A stretch of 64,000 nucleotides of DNA from Bacteroidota bacterium (GTDB taxonomy: Bacteria; Bacteroidota; Rhodothermia; JANXDC01), in NCBI GenBank assembly GCA_025059945.1, contig JANXDC010000001.1:65677-129676 (forward strand), written 5' to 3'. A program made the position numbers and the translations under genes. This document shows positions 45,091 through 52,626 of the stretch, piece by piece; positions within the stretch are counted from its first letter, which is position 1, and each line of letters opens with the position of its first letter. A model generated the notes under the pieces. The model worked only from the letters and a program-made list of their open reading frames with translations. It did no database searches and was not told where the DNA came from.

Positions 45091-45633
45091 ATGCAGGAGC
45101 TCCATCCCCAAACGTTTACCGCCTCCGAAGCCGAAGTGGAGGCGTATCTGCGGAGGCTAGAGCAAACCCAAACACCCGAGGGGCCCTCGAGGCTGGCTAC
45201 GTTTGCCGGCTTGGCTCTGATCGCGGCCGGCCTGCTGTATCTAGCCCAGCGGATCGGGGCTCCAATCGGTTGGGATCTTTCTGGGCTTGTGCGCGCGCTC
45301 CCCATTCTGGGTGGGGTCTTGATCCTCTTGCTGGGGCTTGGCGTGTTGGCGCGTCCTCGACGTCCTCGCCCTAGTCCGGACCCCCCTGTAGCGGCCGAAA
45401 GTCCACCCCAACCCAGGCGTCTGCGGCGATCCCAGCAGGGAAAGATCGCCGGTGTTTGCTCCGGGATCGCCGAATACTTTGGGATTGATCCCACGCTGAT
45501 GCGGCTTCTGTTTGTGGTGCTCACCCTCTTTTTTAGCGGCACGGGCATCCCTCTATATCTGGTGCTCTGGTGGATTATGCCCCCAGCCTCAAGCTCCTCT
45601 GCGCGGGCGCGCCAAATCCCGATACGCGATTAG
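45091..45633 (+). CDS. PspC domain membrane protein, long form
   Basis: A 180-residue membrane protein: a hydrophilic N-terminus, two membrane helices (about 45-60 and 68-88), a proline/arginine linker, and a C-terminal PspC domain (GKIAGVCSGIAEYFGIDPTLMRLLFVVLTL) with its membrane helix. PspC is the membrane partner of the phage-shock response in enterics; in Bacteroidota such genes are often independent. AAGGAGAG precedes the start. It is followed after 11 bases by a short PspC gene. Confidence 0.85.
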   Translation: MQELHPQTFTASEAEVEAYLRRLEQTQTPEGPSRLATFAGLALIAAGLLYLAQRIGAPIGWDLSGLVRALPILGGVLILLLGLGVLARPRRPRPSPDPPVAAESPPQPRRLRRSQQGKIAGVCSGIAEYFGIDPTLMRLLFVVLTLFFSGTGIPLYLVLWWIMPPASSSSARARQIPIRD

Positions 45634-45644
45634 GAGGTATGGCG

Positions 45645-45827
45645 ATGGCTCAGCTAGCGCGCTCGCGCACGGAACGCAAGCTGCTTGGGGTCTGCGGAGG
45701 TCTGGCTCGCTACTTTGGGCTCGATCCCACGTTGGTGCGCGCGGTCTACGCTGCGCTCACGCTCTTTAGCGTTGGCACGGGGATACTGGTGTACCTGCTG
45801 CTGGCGCTCGTGTTGCCGGAGGAGTAG
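45645..45827 (+). CDS. PspC domain protein, short form
   Basis: A 60-residue single PspC domain: basic start (LARSRTERKLLGV), the GGLARYFGLDPTLVRAVYA helix, and a hydrophobic helix to the C-terminus (LLALVLPEE). AGGAGGT ends seven bases before ATG 45645, which decides this start over the ATG two codons earlier. It is a tandem relative of the gene just upstream; both probably sit in the inner membrane and sense envelope state, which is inference. Confidence 0.82.
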   Translation: MAQLARSRTERKLLGVCGGLARYFGLDPTLVRAVYAALTLFSVGTGILVYLLLALVLPEE

Positions 45828-45881: not shown

Positions 45882-45973
45882 TTCCTTTGGGTTCCGTTGG
45901 GGGTGCCCCGCTATCAGGGCAGGGCTGAGAGGATACCCTTTGAACCTGATCCGGGTAATGCCGGCGAAGGGAA
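45882..45973 (+). ncRNA. TPP riboswitch (THI element)
   Basis: Thiamine pyrophosphate aptamer. The conserved core GGGCTGAGAGGATACCC (45918-45938 region) binds the pyrimidine, and the GAACCTGATCCGGGTAATGCC segment, cited as GAACCTGAT and GGGTAATGCCGGCGAAGGGA-type end, binds the pyrophosphate. P1 closes with TTCCTTT (45882-45888) and AAGGGAA (45967-45973). The downstream genes are thiM-thiE-thiD-tenA, so excess TPP should shut the operon. Confidence 0.97.
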
Positions 45974-46017
45974 TACGGGGCCAGATTATGGACTTGTCTG
46001 CGCCTTTGTCCCCCTAG

Positions 46018-46060
46018 CCTCATCCCCAATATCCCCCGCAGACCCAACTAGCTAATGAGG
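46018..46060 (+). promoter_or_regulatory. Candidate SD-sequestering stem of the TPP riboswitch
   Basis: CCTCAT (46018-46023) can pair with ATGAGG (46055-46060), the latter overlapping the thiM ribosome site GAGGAGG. No terminator-like hairpin with T-run is seen between aptamer and thiM, so control of translation is the likelier mode. Confidence 0.45.
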
Positions 46061-46069
46061 AGGTTTGCT

Positions 46070-46873
46070 ATGCGCGAGGAAGCCGTGCGCGCCCTGTGGG
46101 CGGATGTGCAGGCCATTCGGTCTCGATCGCCGCTGGTGCACAACATCACGAACTACGTCGTCATGAACACCACGGCCAACGCGCTATTGGCCATCGGGGC
46201 CTCGCCCGTCATGGCGCACGCCGAAGAGGAGGTCGAAGCCATGGTGGAGCTTGCCGGGGCGCTTGTGGTCAACATCGGCACCTTAAGCCCCCCGTGGGTG
46301 CGGGCTATGGAGCGCGCCATGGGGCGCGCCCATGAACGCGGAGTGCCGATCGTCTTTGACCCCGTTGGAGTGGGGGCGACGCCCTATCGAACCGAAACGG
46401 CGCGGATGCTCATAGAGCGCGCCAGGCCCACCGTGATCCGGGGCAACGCCTCGGAGATCGCCTCGCTTGCCGGGGTGGAGGTGCGCACCAAGGGGGTCGA
46501 TAGCACCCTGGACTCCGAGTCCGTGGTGGGGTTGGCGCGCAAACTGAGCTCGGAGCTGGGCTGCGTGATCTGCATAAGCGGGCGCGTCGATTACATCGCC
46601 TCCGGCGGGCAGGTGCGGGCCGTGCACAACGGGCATCCCCTCATGCCTCGCGTAACGGGGATGGGCTGCACGGCTAGCGCCCTCTGCGGCGCGTTCGTGG
46701 CCGTTAACACCGATTTCGCGCAGGCCACAACGCACGCCATGGCGGTCATGGGGATCGCCGGCGAATTGGCCGCCGAGGGGGCTGAGGGCCCCGCCAGCTT
46801 TCAGGTGCGCTTCCTGGACGCCCTCTACCGGCTTTCGGAAGCGGACATCCAAGGGCGGCTTCGCATGGAGTAA
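46070..46873 (+). CDS. thiM: Hydroxyethylthiazole kinase
   Basis: ThiM phosphorylates the thiazole alcohol (THZ) recovered from broken thiamine. The 267-residue protein has the substrate segment [23 protein letters not shown], here given by its parts HNITNYVV and [17 protein letters not shown], the ATP-binding GNASEI, and the catalytic Cys in [18 protein letters not shown] eight bases upstream fixes ATG 46070. First gene of the TPP-controlled operon. Confidence 0.97.
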
Positions 46874-46879
46874 GGTCTT

Positions 46880-47536
46880 ATGCCATGGCTGTATCTGGTG
46901 ACGGATCGCGAACTGATCGGCAATAGACCTCTGGAGGAGGTCGTGTTGGAGGCCGTCCGAGGGGGTGTCAAGATGGTGCAGCTTCGCGAAAAGCGGGCCA
47001 GCACGCGCCAATACGTCGAGCTGGCCGAACGCCTGCACGCGCTGCTCCGCCCCCTGGGGGTGCCCCTTATCATCAACGACCGCGTGGACGTGGCCTTGGC
47101 CGTCGGGGCTGAGGGGGTGCACATCGGACAGCAGGATATGCCCTATGAACACGCACGTCGGCTTTTGGGTCCGGAGGCGATCATCGGGCTATCGGTGGAG
47201 AGCATGGAGGAGCTTGCAGAGGCGGAAGCCTACGAGGTCTCGTATCTGAGCATCAGCCCCGTCTTCCCGACACCCACGAAGACCGACACCAAGGGGGCCT
47301 GGGGCCTAGAGGGGTTGGCCGAGGCGCGTCGCCGATCCCGGCATCGGCTCGTTGCGATAGGCGGAATCGGGCCACACAACGTGCGCCTCGTTCTTGAGGC
47401 TGGGGCCAACGGCATCGCCGTGGTCTCCGCTATTTGCGCCGCTCCGGACCCGCGCGAAGCGGCGCAGGCGCTGCAGCGGGAAATCGAGCGCTTCGAGACC
47501 GAACGAGCCTCCTGGAGAGGAGAACAACAGAGATGA
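46880..47536 (+). CDS. thiE: Thiamine-phosphate synthase
   Basis: ThiE joins HMP-pyrophosphate and thiazole phosphate to thiamine phosphate. The 218-residue TIM barrel carries VQLREK at residues 33-38, IINDRVDVA with the metal Asp, GVHIGQQD, and the phosphate-binding VAIGGI and AVVSAI loops. Some 20 C-terminal residues are charged. It starts six bases after thiM and overlaps thiD by four bases (ATGA). Confidence 0.97.
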
Positions 47537-48345
47537 GCAAGCGATATGCGCGAGCGCTTACGATCGCCGGCTCCGACTCCGGAGGCGGGGCCGGTATACA
47601 GGCGGATCTGAAGACCTTCTCCGCGCTCGGCTGCTATGGGCTGAGCGTGATCACGGCTCTTACGGCGCAGAACACGCAACGAGTGCGCGCCGTCTACCCC
47701 GTGTCCGCGGATTTCATCGGAGCCCAACTGGATGCCGTGCTTGAGGACATCGGGGCCGACGCGATCAAGATCGGCATGCTGCATACGGAGTCCGTAATCC
47801 AAACCGTGGCCGAACGGCTCAGCCGATACGGAGCCGCCCCCGTGGTGTTGGACCCCGTCATGGTGGCCAAGTCCGGAGACCGGCTCTTGGAGCAGGCGGC
47901 GATCGAGGCGCTTCGCGAACGCCTATTGCCCTTGGCCACGGTGATCACGCCCAATCTGCCGGAGGCCGAGGTGCTGCTCGGCCAAGCCATCCGGTCCCGA
48001 GACGAGATGCCGGATGCGGCGCGCAAACTGCTGGAGCTCGGCCCGGAGGCGGTGCTTCTGAAAGGAGGGCACCTGGGGGGCTCGACGAGCCCGGATCTAT
48101 TGCTTTGGCGCTCGGCTCCGGAGCCCGTGTGGTTGGAGGCGGAGCGGATCCAAACCCGCAACACGCACGGAACCGGTTGCACGCTTTCCTCGGCCATCGC
48201 GGCCCATCTGGCTCGGGGTTATGAGCTGCTCGAGGCCGTGCGCTTGGCCAAGGCCTTCTTAAGCGAAGCTCTCCGATACGGGGCCGTCTACGAGCTCGGG
48301 GCCGGACGCGGACCGGTGCATCATTTTTATCGGTATTGGGAGTAG
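47533..48345 (+). CDS. thiD: HMP/HMP-phosphate kinase
   Basis: ThiD phosphorylates hydroxymethylpyrimidine twice to give the pyrophosphate used by ThiE. The 270-residue ribokinase-fold protein has [18 protein letters not shown] near residues 12-29, DPVMVAKSG, the LLKGGHLGG segment and the catalytic THGTGCTLS. It overlaps thiE by ATGA and is followed by tenA after five bases. No thiC is present, so HMP probably comes by salvage. Confidence 0.96.
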
Positions 48346-48350
48346 GGGGT

Positions 48351-49007
48351 ATGCGGATCTCCGAAAGCCTTTGGCGTTCGATTGAGCCGATTTACGACGC
48401 CATTCTGCGGCATCCGTTTAACCAGGAGCTAGCGCGAGGCGAACTGGCGTGTGAGCGCTTTGCCTTTTACCTGCAGCAGGATGCGCTGTATCTGGTTGAC
48501 TTCGGCAGGGCCCTGGCCCTTATGGCCGCTCGGGCCCATGAGGCCGAAGACGTGCTGGCCTTTGCGCGCTTCGCCCAGGGGGCCGTCGAGGTGGAACGTG
48601 CCCTGCATGAGAGCTATTTCCGGGAGTTGGGCATTCGGAAGCCCCTCCAGGTCCAAAGTCCGGCCTGTTTTGCGTACACGAACTTTCTGCTAGCCACGGC
48701 TGCCTGCCGCAGCCTCGAGGAGGGCATGGCAGCGCTGCTGCCCTGCTTTTGGATTTATCGGGAGGTGGGGCGGGCCATATATGCGCAGGCAAGCCCCGAT
48801 AACCCGTATCGGCGGTGGATCGACACGTACGCCAGCGAGCAATTCGCAAGCTGGGTAGAGCGGGCGATCGCGATGACCGACCGCTTCGCGGCGGGAGCTT
48901 CTAAGCGGACGCGCGCCCTCATGCAGAGGGCTTTTGAGGCCTCAGCTCGCCTGGAATGGATGTTCTGGGACAGCGCCTACCGCATGGAGAGTTGGCCGCC
49001 CGCTTGA
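48351..49007 (+). CDS. tenA: Aminopyrimidine aminohydrolase TenA
   Basis: TenA (thiaminase II) hydrolyses aminomethylpyrimidine breakdown products to HMP for salvage. The 218-residue all-helical protein has the active-site residues Asp44 (LQQDALYL) and Cys132 (PCFWIYREVG), and ASFAYT-like CFAYTNFLL at 106-114. GGGGT precedes ATG 48351. The stop overlaps the TTG start of the following HAD gene (TTGA). It feeds ThiD with HMP. Confidence 0.95.
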   Translation: MRISESLWRSIEPIYDAILRHPFNQELARGELACERFAFYLQQDALYLVDFGRALALMAARAHEAEDVLAFARFAQGAVEVERALHESYFRELGIRKPLQVQSPACFAYTNFLLATAACRSLEEGMAALLPCFWIYREVGRAIYAQASPDNPYRRWIDTYASEQFASWVERAIAMTDRFAAGASKRTRALMQRAFEASARLEWMFWDSAYRMESWPPA

Positions 49008-49876
49008 AGGTGGGTTGGGTGATCCTGGACTGGTCCGGCACCCTGAGCGCCACCTCTGTGGCCTTCGGCCGTCCGGACTCGCTTCGGGCCGCGCTCAAGG
49101 AGGCGGGCCTAGCCGAGTCGGGGCTAGAAGACCCCGAGCGCTTCTGGCGTGAGATCGTCATCCCCACCTGGCAGGAGGGGAGCACCAGCGCTATAGGTTA
49201 CGGCGCGCTTATTGCGCGGCAGCTAGTGCGCTCGCATCCGGCTGGAGCGGCGATCGAGCCAGAGCTCTTAAGGCGGGCCCGGCGCTTTGTGGGAGCTTAT
49301 CTAGAGGCCTCGGCCCCGGATCCGATTTGGAGGCCTTTGTTGGAGCGGTGGTCACGTCATCCAGGGTTGCGCCTGCTCATCGCCACAGACCACTACGCGG
49401 AGGCTACGGAGGCCTTCTTGCGCCATCTAGAGGCCTGGGGCGTTCCGGTGCGCGTTCTGCGCTGGCCTTCGGCCTCCGATCCGAGGCCGGAGGAGGCCGC
49501 CGCCGAGCCAGCGCCGATTTACTTGGCCAACTCCGCCGACGTCGGGGCCACCAAGGATTCCCCGCGTTTTTGGGGTCGCGTGCGCCGTCTTCTGCCTGAG
49601 CGGCCCGTCCGCGCCTGGGTGATCGACGACTTCGGGGCCAACGAGCTCAGCGAGGACCCTTATTCGGCGGCCTCCAGACGGCGCCAGGAGCGGGTCTTGA
49701 GCGCTATGGCGGAGAGCTGGCGCGTGCCCGTGGAGGGGTTTTGGCTGCTCGTCCCGGACCTAGGCCGCGATCCGGAAGCCGCCTTGACGCGTTATCGAAG
49801 CCGGGTGCACGAGGCGGCCCAGTGGCTGGAGCGCCGGCTTCGGGCGTGGGAGGCGGGACGCTTGCACCTGGCCTAA
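49004..49876 (+). CDS. HAD-superfamily protein coupled to tenA, candidate thiamine-phosphate phosphatase
   Basis: A 290-residue HAD-fold protein. Motif I is ILDWSGTL with nucleophile Asp9, but Ser11 stands where most phosphatases have the general-acid Asp. Motif II is LLIATDH, and an acidic VIDDFGANE fits motif IV. The start is TTG 49004 inside the tenA stop, or GTG 49010, both in the thiamine operon. TMP-specific HAD phosphatases are known to cluster or fuse with tenA and other thi genes where thiL is missing, so this is a candidate for TMP dephosphorylation. The missing second Asp is a serious point against a classical phosphatase and recalls the DWAGT motif of phosphonatases. Confidence 0.7.
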   Translation: MKVGWVILDWSGTLSATSVAFGRPDSLRAALKEAGLAESGLEDPERFWREIVIPTWQEGSTSAIGYGALIARQLVRSHPAGAAIEPELLRRARRFVGAYLEASAPDPIWRPLLERWSRHPGLRLLIATDHYAEATEAFLRHLEAWGVPVRVLRWPSASDPRPEEAAAEPAPIYLANSADVGATKDSPRFWGRVRRLLPERPVRAWVIDDFGANELSEDPYSAASRRRQERVLSAMAESWRVPVEGFWLLVPDLGRDPEAALTRYRSRVHEAAQWLERRLRAWEAGRLHLA

Positions 49877-49914: not shown

Positions 49915-49927
49915 GCCCCATTGGGGC
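49915..49927 (+). terminator. Weak hairpin between the thiamine operon and the receptor gene
   Basis: GCCCC-ATT-GGGGC, 5-bp stem and 3-base loop, followed by AGTCTTTAT. It may end part of the thiamine operon transcript; readthrough into the receptor gene seems likely. Confidence 0.35.
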
Positions 49928-49956: not shown

Positions 49957-52626
49957 ATGCGCTGGATGATCATCCCGATCGCGATTGGGCTGGGCGCCCT
50001 GAGCCTGGCGCCAGCAGCCTGGGCCCAACCTGCCCGGGTTCAAGGTCAGGTTGTGGATGCGAGCACAGGCGAACCCCTGCCCGGCGCAAACGTTCTGCTT
50101 GTGCGCTCAGGGGAACAGGCTCCCGCTGCCGGCGCCGCAACCGACGTGCAGGGCCGTTATAGCCTGCAGGCGTCAGCCGGCTCCTATAGGCTCCTGGTGC
50201 GGTTTGTGGGCTATGAGGAGGCCGAGCGCCCCGTTACGCTAGAGGCCGGTCGGACGTTGACCGTGGATTTCGCTCTTCGGGCCACCCCGCTTTTGCTCAA
50301 TCCCGTTGTGGTGACCGGATCGCGCAGGCCCGAGAAGGTCCTGGACGCGCCCATGTCGATATCCGTGCTCGAAGCGCGCGAGCTAGAACGCAACGCCTTG
50401 CCCAACACAGCGGCGGTGCTTCGGACCGTGCCCGGCGTGGACGTTTCTCAGTCCGCCTTGAACCGATACCAGATCTCCCTGCGCGGCTTCAACACCGTCT
50501 TTGTGGCCAAGACGTATGCGCTGGTCGATTACCGACAGGCCACCACGCCCAGCCTGGGCATCAACGAGTACTCCGCGATGCCCATTTCGCCCCTGGATGT
50601 AGCCCGCATAGAGGTCGTGCGCGGACCGGGTTCGGCCCTTTACGGGGCCGGTGTCGAGCAGGGGGTGGTGCACTTTATCACCAAAGACCCCTTCGCCTAT
50701 CCCGGGACCTCGCTTATGGTTGGGGGCGGACAGCGCGCCATCTTCCAAGGAGCCCTGCGGCATGCGGCGATCCTGGGCAACCGGTTCGCCTACAAGATCG
50801 TCGGCCAGTATAGCCGAGGCGAAGATTGGAAGCTGGATCCGAATGATCCGCACGACAAGGCCATGCTGGATGCCATCCACCCCAAATGGGGAGGGCGCGA
50901 TTATACGACCTACAACGGCTACGCTAGCCTAACGCTGCAATACCGGCTGGGCTCGGATGCAATGCTGACCGGCACGGCCGGATACTCTCAGTTCCGGCAG
51001 ACGGTGCTCGCCAACACGGGGGAGAACGCGGTCAAGGACTTCTCCGTTCGATACGCACAGCTGCGCCTGCGGGCCGGTGGGTTCTTTGCTCAGATCTTCT
51101 ACACAGGCAACGACGGGGGCAAGACGCACTTCTATCGCAGCCCCATTGACGTGGTCGAACGTTCTTTTCTGACCTCGGGCCAAGCCCAATACAGCTGGTC
51201 CATGTGGCGCGACAGACAGCAGTTCGTCCTGGGCCTGGACTACCGCCGTACGGTGCCGCGGACCGGAGGCACGATTCACGGTCGCTTTGAGGACCGGGAC
51301 AACATGGTGGAGCTCGGCGGATACCTGCAATCTCAGACCAGCCTGCTTTCAAATCTGGACCTCGTGTTGACGGGGCGCCTGGATCGCGACAACGTGATCC
51401 GTAAGGTGCAGTTCTCCCCCCGGGTAGGTCTGGTCTATAAGCCCTCCGCAAGTCACAGCCTCCGGGCCACCTATAATCGGGCCTTCACCACCCCGGCCGG
51501 CATCAACTTTTTCATCGACCTCTTCATCGAGGACCGCGGGCCCTTCGGTGTCCGCGGGGTCGGCACGGTCGATGGCTGGACCTTCGCGGCACAGCCCCAG
51601 ACCTCAAGCTTTATCCCCGGGGTGCGCGCCTGGCCCGGCATCGGAATCCCGCTTCAGGTGGCTTACACAGCCGTAACGAGCGCCATCACGGCTTCGGGTC
51701 AACCGCTAGCCCCGTTGCGCACGCTGCTTTTGAGCCGAGCCCCCCAGATCACGGGCTTCTCCGCCGGGTCTATGATCGACGCCCAACGCCGGCCCGTGAC
51801 GCGGCTGGAGAACGTGCCCCAGGCTCGGCAGACGATCACCAACAGCTGGGAACTGGGCTACAAGGGCCTGTTTGGAGGTCGGCTGGCCGTGAGCCTGGAT
51901 CTGTACTACACGCGCAAGCGCAATTTCCTGAGCGAGCTACAGCCCTTTACGCCGCTGGTTGCTGTGCCCCGCCTTCCGGACGACCTGGCCAACGCCGTGG
52001 CGGCCGCGTTCACGGACGCCGAACTGCGCGCCTTCGGGCTGACCCGCGCGCAGCTTGCGGCCATCTACCGGCAGGCCGCCGCCTCCATAGCGGCCAACCC
52101 GATCGGGCTTATCGAACCCCAAGAGAACTTCAACCCCAACCGCAAACCCGAGCTGCTCTTGAGCTACATCACCTTTGGACGCGTCTCCTACTACGGAGCC
52201 GACTTGGCCCTGCAGTGGTATCCGAACCCGCGCTGGAGCCTTTGGGGTAATCTCTCCTGGCTAAGCGATACGTACTTCGACGACGAGGAGCTGGGTGAGC
52301 CCGGTACGGGGCGGGAGATCGCCATGAACGCGCCCCGAATCAAAGCCCGAGCCGGAGCCGAGTACGCGGCCCCGGCCGGATGGTCGCTGAGCCTAACGGG
52401 ACAGTACGTAGACGGCTTCGAGGTGCGCTCCGGCATCTTTAGCGGCCGCGTTGAAGACTATTTTCTGCTGGACGTGGGTGCAGGCTATGACCTGAGCCCC
52501 GTTGTGCGCGGCCTGCGCCTGGATGTGCTGGTGCAAAACGCCCTGGATCATCGGCACCGGCAGTACATCGGAGCGCCCAAGATCGGACGCCTCATCACGG
52601 CCCGGCTGCTGTACGCGTTGCCGTGA
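49957..52626 (+). CDS. TonB-dependent outer-membrane receptor
   Basis: An 889-residue receptor that imports a scarce ligand across the outer membrane with TonB energy. Signal peptide 1-22 (ending AAWA-QP), a carboxypeptidase-regulatory-like domain (about 25-105, VQGQVVDASTGEPLPGANV), a plug (about 115-240, VVVTGSRRPEKVLDAP and IEVVRGPGSALYG), and a barrel to the C-terminus. AAGGAGGAG fixes ATG 49957. It is not followed by a SusD-type gene, so a small-molecule or metal ligand is likelier than glycan. Position 80 bases after the thiamine salvage operon makes a thiamine-related ligand possible. Confidence 0.93.
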   Translation: MRWMIIPIAIGLGALSLAPAAWAQPARVQGQVVDASTGEPLPGANVLLVRSGEQAPAAGAATDVQGRYSLQASAGSYRLLVRFVGYEEAERPVTLEAGRTLTVDFALRATPLLLNPVVVTGSRRPEKVLDAPMSISVLEARELERNALPNTAAVLRTVPGVDVSQSALNRYQISLRGFNTVFVAKTYALVDYRQATTPSLGINEYSAMPISPLDVARIEVVRGPGSALYGAGVEQGVVHFITKDPFAYPGTSLMVGGGQRAIFQGALRHAAILGNRFAYKIVGQYSRGEDWKLDPNDPHDKAMLDAIHPKWGGRDYTTYNGYASLTLQYRLGSDAMLTGTAGYSQFRQTVLANTGENAVKDFSVRYAQLRLRAGGFFAQIFYTGNDGGKTHFYRSPIDVVERSFLTSGQAQYSWSMWRDRQQFVLGLDYRRTVPRTGGTIHGRFEDRDNMVELGGYLQSQTSLLSNLDLVLTGRLDRDNVIRKVQFSPRVGLVYKPSASHSLRATYNRAFTTPAGINFFIDLFIEDRGPFGVRGVGTVDGWTFAAQPQTSSFIPGVRAWPGIGIPLQVAYTAVTSAITASGQPLAPLRTLLLSRAPQITGFSAGSMIDAQRRPVTRLENVPQARQTITNSWELGYKGLFGGRLAVSLDLYYTRKRNFLSELQPFTPLVAVPRLPDDLANAVAAAFTDAELRAFGLTRAQLAAIYRQAAASIAANPIGLIEPQENFNPNRKPELLLSYITFGRVSYYGADLALQWYPNPRWSLWGNLSWLSDTYFDDEELGEPGTGREIAMNAPRIKARAGAEYAAPAGWSLSLTGQYVDGFEVRSGIFSGRVEDYFLLDVGAGYDLSPVVRGLRLDVLVQNALDHRHRQYIGAPKIGRLITARLLYALP

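Follow-up and report, generated by a model that had tools for sequence, protein, structure and literature searches.

Layout and control of the thiamine operon

The window, which is the whole 64,000-nucleotide stretch of DNA that was analyzed, contains a five-gene cluster in the order thiM-thiE-thiD-tenA-HAD with all genes on the + strand and with successive spacings of 6, -4, 5 and -4 nt. A TPP riboswitch on the + strand at 45889..45990 precedes the cluster and matched Rfam RF00059 with 69.6 bits (E=1.3e-11). A riboswitch also lies 5' of thiM in the relative Bacteroidetes bacterium KatS3mg041 (AP024675.1), which agrees with the TPP control of the operon proposed in the preliminary description. 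The first gene, thiM, specifies hydroxyethylthiazole kinase (46055..46873; Pfam HK, 3.9e-85; NCBIfam TIGR00694, 301.6 bits) and is followed by thiE for thiamine phosphate synthase (46880..47536; Pfam TMP-TENI, 3.8e-66; TIGR00693, 219.5 bits) and thiD for HMP/HMP-P kinase (47533..48345; Pfam Phos_pyr_kin, 9.6e-100; TIGR00097, 352.6 bits), all three NCBIfam scores being above the respective cut-offs. The start ATG of thiD overlaps the thiE stop. The thiaminase II-type gene tenA (48351..49007) matched Pfam TENA_THI-4 (1.7e-41) and NCBIfam TIGR04306 salvage_TenA with 144.8 bits at a cut-off of 130. Two small genes located 5' of the riboswitch (45091-45827) were PspC-domain-like by eye (GVCSGIAEYFGIDPT, GVCGGLARYFGLDPT).

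The HAD-fold gene (49004..49876, + strand) encodes a protein of 290 aa with a TTG start, and is supported by its translation, an orthologue alignment, AlphaFold and Foldseek results, and purifying selection. The TGA stop of tenA and the TTG at 49004 share the bases TTGA, giving a 4-base overlap. The TTG start is credible because it aligns with the ATG of the sole orthologue found (MKVGWVILDWSGT / MRAVWVVLDWSGT). In KatS3mg041 this ATG is positioned 6 nt 3' of the tenA stop, so that the adjacency of the two genes is conserved but the overlap is not. The tight linkage to tenA that had been noted previously was thus borne out, whereas translational coupling of the two genes is put no higher than plausible as the overlap is absent in the relative.

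A pattern scan located a terminator-like hairpin with a T-rich tail 3' of the HAD gene (49915..49927, + strand), although the scan overall showed a weak excess compared to shuffled sequences and alone is weak evidence. The matching junction in KatS3mg041, viewed by eye, reads GGCGGA...TCCGCC followed by TTTCTT. The recurrence of a hairpin and T-rich tail at this spot in both genomes suggests that the thi operon ends after the HAD gene. Directly 3', with the hairpin between, is a gene for a TonB-dependent receptor (49957-52626) whose product is 82.5% identical to that of the relative, which is above the value for every thi gene. Given the intervening hairpin, this receptor is at most a candidate for thiamine uptake. 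It is followed by a gene for a YncE-like beta-propeller protein (PF21783; 52689-53726) that shows 71% identity in the relative.

Conservation and distribution of the HAD gene

The sole homologue of the HAD protein that was found is that of KatS3mg041, which is 64% identical and retains the DWSGT motif. This genome possesses the TPP riboswitch and all five operon genes in matching order, and the flanks also correspond, with bshC-like, TonB receptor, propeller and tRNA genes. The expectation that homologues would occur with thi genes therefore holds for the single homologue available. The HAD gene is the most divergent of the operon, with 64% identity compared to 72-81% for the thi genes. Nevertheless, dN/dS for the HAD pair was about 0.29/1.12 = 0.26, which is in the range of neighboring genes, and the gene clearly is constrained by purifying selection.

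Searches with a two-sequence profile covered 245 genomes of the class and 395 genomes of the phylum, and neither set yielded a further convincing homologue; at E<=0.05, the class-wide search returned nothing outside the genus except short partial alignments scoring 13-18 bits, which were taken as noise. A degenerate-pattern scan of one genome per species across ~85,000 species, which requires short exact peptide matches and detects only fairly close relatives, gave no further homologue, and neither tblastn against plasmids nor PHROGs yielded a match to the protein. The surroundings of tenA were also inspected at 28 further loci in the class. Open frames up to about 1.5 kb away contained no HAD motif I, other than two DPxGT strings that occur by chance within transporter ATPases. 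By eye, several other tenA loci of the class instead have ECF-type-transporter-like genes after tenA: at L016, L018, L019 and L021, tenA is followed 3' by genes resembling those for the substrate component of an ECF-type HMP transporter and for an ABC ATPase.

The HAD gene apparently is restricted to one genus, judging from these searches. As the tenA-HAD link is confined to that genus, the gene-neighbor evidence amounts to one lineage. This distribution, with no co-occurrence outside the genus and no nearby HAD motif at the 28 other tenA loci, would suit a HAD protein with an unrelated metabolic role that is carried in the operon by chance. However, the tight position of the gene, with a 4-nt overlap or a 6-nt gap, has been kept over substantial divergence, and a chance passenger is judged to be highly improbable. 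The HAD gene is real, under selection, and tied to the thi operon.

Motifs and predicted fold of the HAD protein

Sequence comparisons assign the protein to no recognized HAD subfamily. Its scores with Pfam PF12710 (16 bits, E=0.017, cut-off 27) and PF00702 (14.2 bits, E=0.06, cut-off 26.4) fell below the gathering score, which is a detection threshold and not a property of the HAD fold; the orthologue attained 19.4 bits with PF00702. No NCBIfam family, phosphonatase included, matched at E<=1. A sequence search of the PDB with the HAD protein returned nothing useful, with a chance aminotransferase match at E=0.049, and a search with the profile of the protein and its orthologue produced no match.

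The HAD fold was predicted more readily from structure. AlphaFold models of the window protein and the orthologue were of fair confidence (pLDDT 80.4 and 80.7; pTM 0.80 and 0.78, respectively) and show a Rossmannoid core whose motifs I and II are separated by a helical cap, the predicted secondary structure comprising a strand at 3-10, six helices within 16-117, and a strand at 122-128. Both models matched almost only HAD structures of the C1-cap type when compared with the PDB using Foldseek (TM 0.4-0.6), in accord with the fold proposed in the preliminary description. Among the best matches were NANP, YfnB and beta-phosphoglucomutase, which are phosphatases or phosphomutases, together with dehalogenases; cis-epoxysuccinate hydrolase, azetidine-carboxylate hydrolase and phosphonatase were further matches. 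These fold matches are weak and do not separate phosphatases from dehalogenases. NANP/HDHD4 and YfnB carry the canonical DxD motif. They ranked near the top by TM-score with either model and are alike in cap type and in the layout of motifs II-IV, but share only about 11-18% identity with the HAD protein.

HAD motifs II, III and IV bind phosphate and Mg2+. In the window protein these correspond to T128, K184 and D208 D209 FGA N213 (DDFGAN), respectively, and motif I is LDWSGT (D9-W-S11-G-T) with Ser at D+2. The alignment revealed that D9, T128, K184 and D208/D209 are invariant between the orthologues, both of which therefore possess the Asp nucleophile, Ser/Thr, Lys and acidic pair of HAD motifs, and that Ser occupies D+2 in each. 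The replacement of the second Asp of motif I by Ser, as read originally from the window, was confirmed by the identical motif in the orthologue. The other proteins in the two genomes with HAD profiles carry, where motif I is readable, DKTGT (P-type ATPases), DIDGT or DRDGT, so that DWSGT is not a local habit; a search of a literature library found no HAD paper with a DWSGT motif. The roles of the HAD motif residues have been reviewed (PMC8069645), and HADs that lack the acid-base Asp are dehalogenases, phosphonatase or untested proteins (PMC9876914). Overall, the models and motifs describe a divergent C1-cap HAD of no particular subfamily in which the usual acid-base Asp at D+2 is replaced by Ser in both genomes.

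The resemblance to phosphonoacetaldehyde hydrolase (phosphonatase, PhnX) raised in the preliminary description did not extend past motif I in support of such an activity. PhnX also is a C1-cap HAD without the second Asp of motif I, with DWAGT compared to DWSGT in the window protein. However, the HAD protein lacks the conserved cap lysine that forms the Schiff base in PhnX: the lysines are located at positions 2, 32 and 184 in the window protein and at 77, 105, 173 and 276 in the orthologue, and the sole lysine that aligns is that of motif III (K184/K173). Furthermore, phosphonatase was the first Foldseek match of the window model but was not among the best 50 for the orthologue model. Assignment as a phosphonatase was rejected on these two grounds.

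The loss of Asp at D+2, as in non-phosphatase HADs, is also in keeping with cleavage of a non-phosphate bond (C-N, C-S, C-halogen or C-P) in a thiamine breakdown product upstream of TenA, with Asp9 acting as in haloacid dehalogenases or in epoxysuccinate or azetidine-carboxylate hydrolases. The presence of cis-epoxysuccinate hydrolase, azetidine-carboxylate hydrolase, dehalogenases and phosphonatase among the Foldseek matches favors this activity, whereas motif IV (DDxxxN) and the motif III Lys resemble a Mg2+/phosphate site, the Schiff-base lysine of phosphonatase is absent, and D+2 is Ser in both orthologues and not the Tyr that is reported to be characteristic of dehalogenases (PMC9876914), including L-2-haloacid dehalogenase. 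Hydrolysis of a non-phosphate bond is a serious rival to phosphate removal, although an unlikely one. A second serious rival, to which a similarly low probability is given, is that the protein is a weak or non-catalytic HAD-fold partner or regulator of TenA or of another salvage enzyme. Its missing acid-base Asp, its occurrence in a single genus and its status as the fastest-evolving member of the operon fit such a role, but a pure scaffold would have no need of the Asp nucleophile, the Thr, the Lys or the acidic motif IV, all of which persist at 64% identity.

Thiamine genes elsewhere and the role of the HAD protein

The operon had been described as thiL-less, and a genome-wide search for thiL and thiN had been proposed. 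No thiL is present in thiM-thiE-thiD-tenA-HAD and in this respect the description holds, but it does not extend to the genome: contig 12 encodes a full-length ThiL of 351 aa with AIR-synthase domains (259.5 bits; cut-off 184). KatS3mg041 similarly possesses a full-length ThiL above the cut-off. ThiC, ThiG and ThiN were not found in the genome; a single ThiG match in the relative was below the cut-off. In a second TPP-controlled operon, on contig 5 (L063:58-4526, - strand), a TPP riboswitch is followed by genes for a TonB receptor, thiamine pyrophosphokinase (TPK) and a sodium:solute symporter. In gut Bacteroidetes, the OMthi-pnuT-tnr3 operons likewise have the riboswitch, TonB receptor and TPK (PMC5613172); the genome departs from them in that the symporter takes the place of the PnuT of Bacteroides and in that the salvage operon has an extra HAD gene. 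The symporter may be a thiamine transporter from another family. The gene content makes the organism look like a thiamine salvager in which both final routes to TPP are present: dependence on salvage follows from the absence of thiC and thiG, and the absence of ThiN is of no consequence because thiE is present.

Plant TH2 is a HAD domain fused to a TenA domain. The position of the HAD gene beside tenA echoes this arrangement, and the preliminary description entertained an unusual TMP phosphatase. As a replacement for a missing ThiL, such an enzyme would allow conversion of TMP to thiamine and then, via TPK, to TPP as in plants and some bacteria. TPK indeed is available to take the product. TMP phosphatase activity is attributed to TH2 in the literature, and HAD phosphatases that act on TMP are known from the accounts of Hasnain et al. 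(2016) in PMC4861732 and of Mimura (2016) in PMC9876914. Compared by description only, the HAD protein has the superfamily and the link to thiamine genes, in the window and in KatS3mg041, in common with TH2 and the bacterial and plant ThMPases of Hasnain et al. (2016). In contrast, it is without the second Asp of the DxD motif, with DWSGT in both orthologues, is encoded by a separate gene, and coexists with ThiL. Since ThiL is present elsewhere in each genome, as is the second kinase (TPK) in that of the window, there is no gap to fill and the HAD protein is not a ThiL substitute. The presence of ThiL is the very observation that the preliminary description had named as counting against its proposal, and replacement of ThiL was rejected as highly improbable. 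Although ThiL and TPK render a TMP phosphatase unneeded for the pathway, such an enzyme would not be senseless, for its product could be taken up by TPK as a substrate.

Of the two possibilities raised earlier, another step of thiamine salvage is the more promising. The explanation that is preferred, albeit tentatively, is that the HAD protein is a phosphohydrolase whose substrate is a thiamine precursor in phosphorylated form or a damaged analogue. As the last member of a TPP-controlled operon for thiamine-precursor salvage, the gene would provide a presumably cytosolic, Mg2+-dependent C1-cap HAD in which Asp9 as nucleophile dephosphorylates a small molecule belonging to the thiamine pool. 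Candidate substrates are HMP-P, thiazole-P, TMP or a damaged analogue, and the enzyme may supply TenA, ThiM and ThiD or clear dead-end phosphates. Retention of the nucleophile, Thr/Lys and acidic motif IV argues for phosphoryl chemistry that is assisted by Mg2+ and directed at a small-molecule substrate, and the location inside a TPP-riboswitch salvage operon with full synteny in the relative argues for a substrate from the thiamine pool. The missing Asp at D+2 calls for caution about the rate or the type of bond: with Ser in the place of the usual acid-base residue, turnover might be slow or might be aided by another residue. That a genus-specific HAD with Ser for Asp catalyzes a new salvage step under TPP control, for example by hydrolyzing a breakdown product that feeds TenA, is quite doubtful.

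The HAD protein is a divergent, lineage-restricted HAD in an operon of a well-understood type. A missing ThiL no longer is a reason for interest in it, and what is left is a small and specific set of candidate substrates. If the protein does act on a thiamine intermediate, thiamine salvage would gain a step and the enzyme would reveal HAD chemistry with Ser at the acid-base position.
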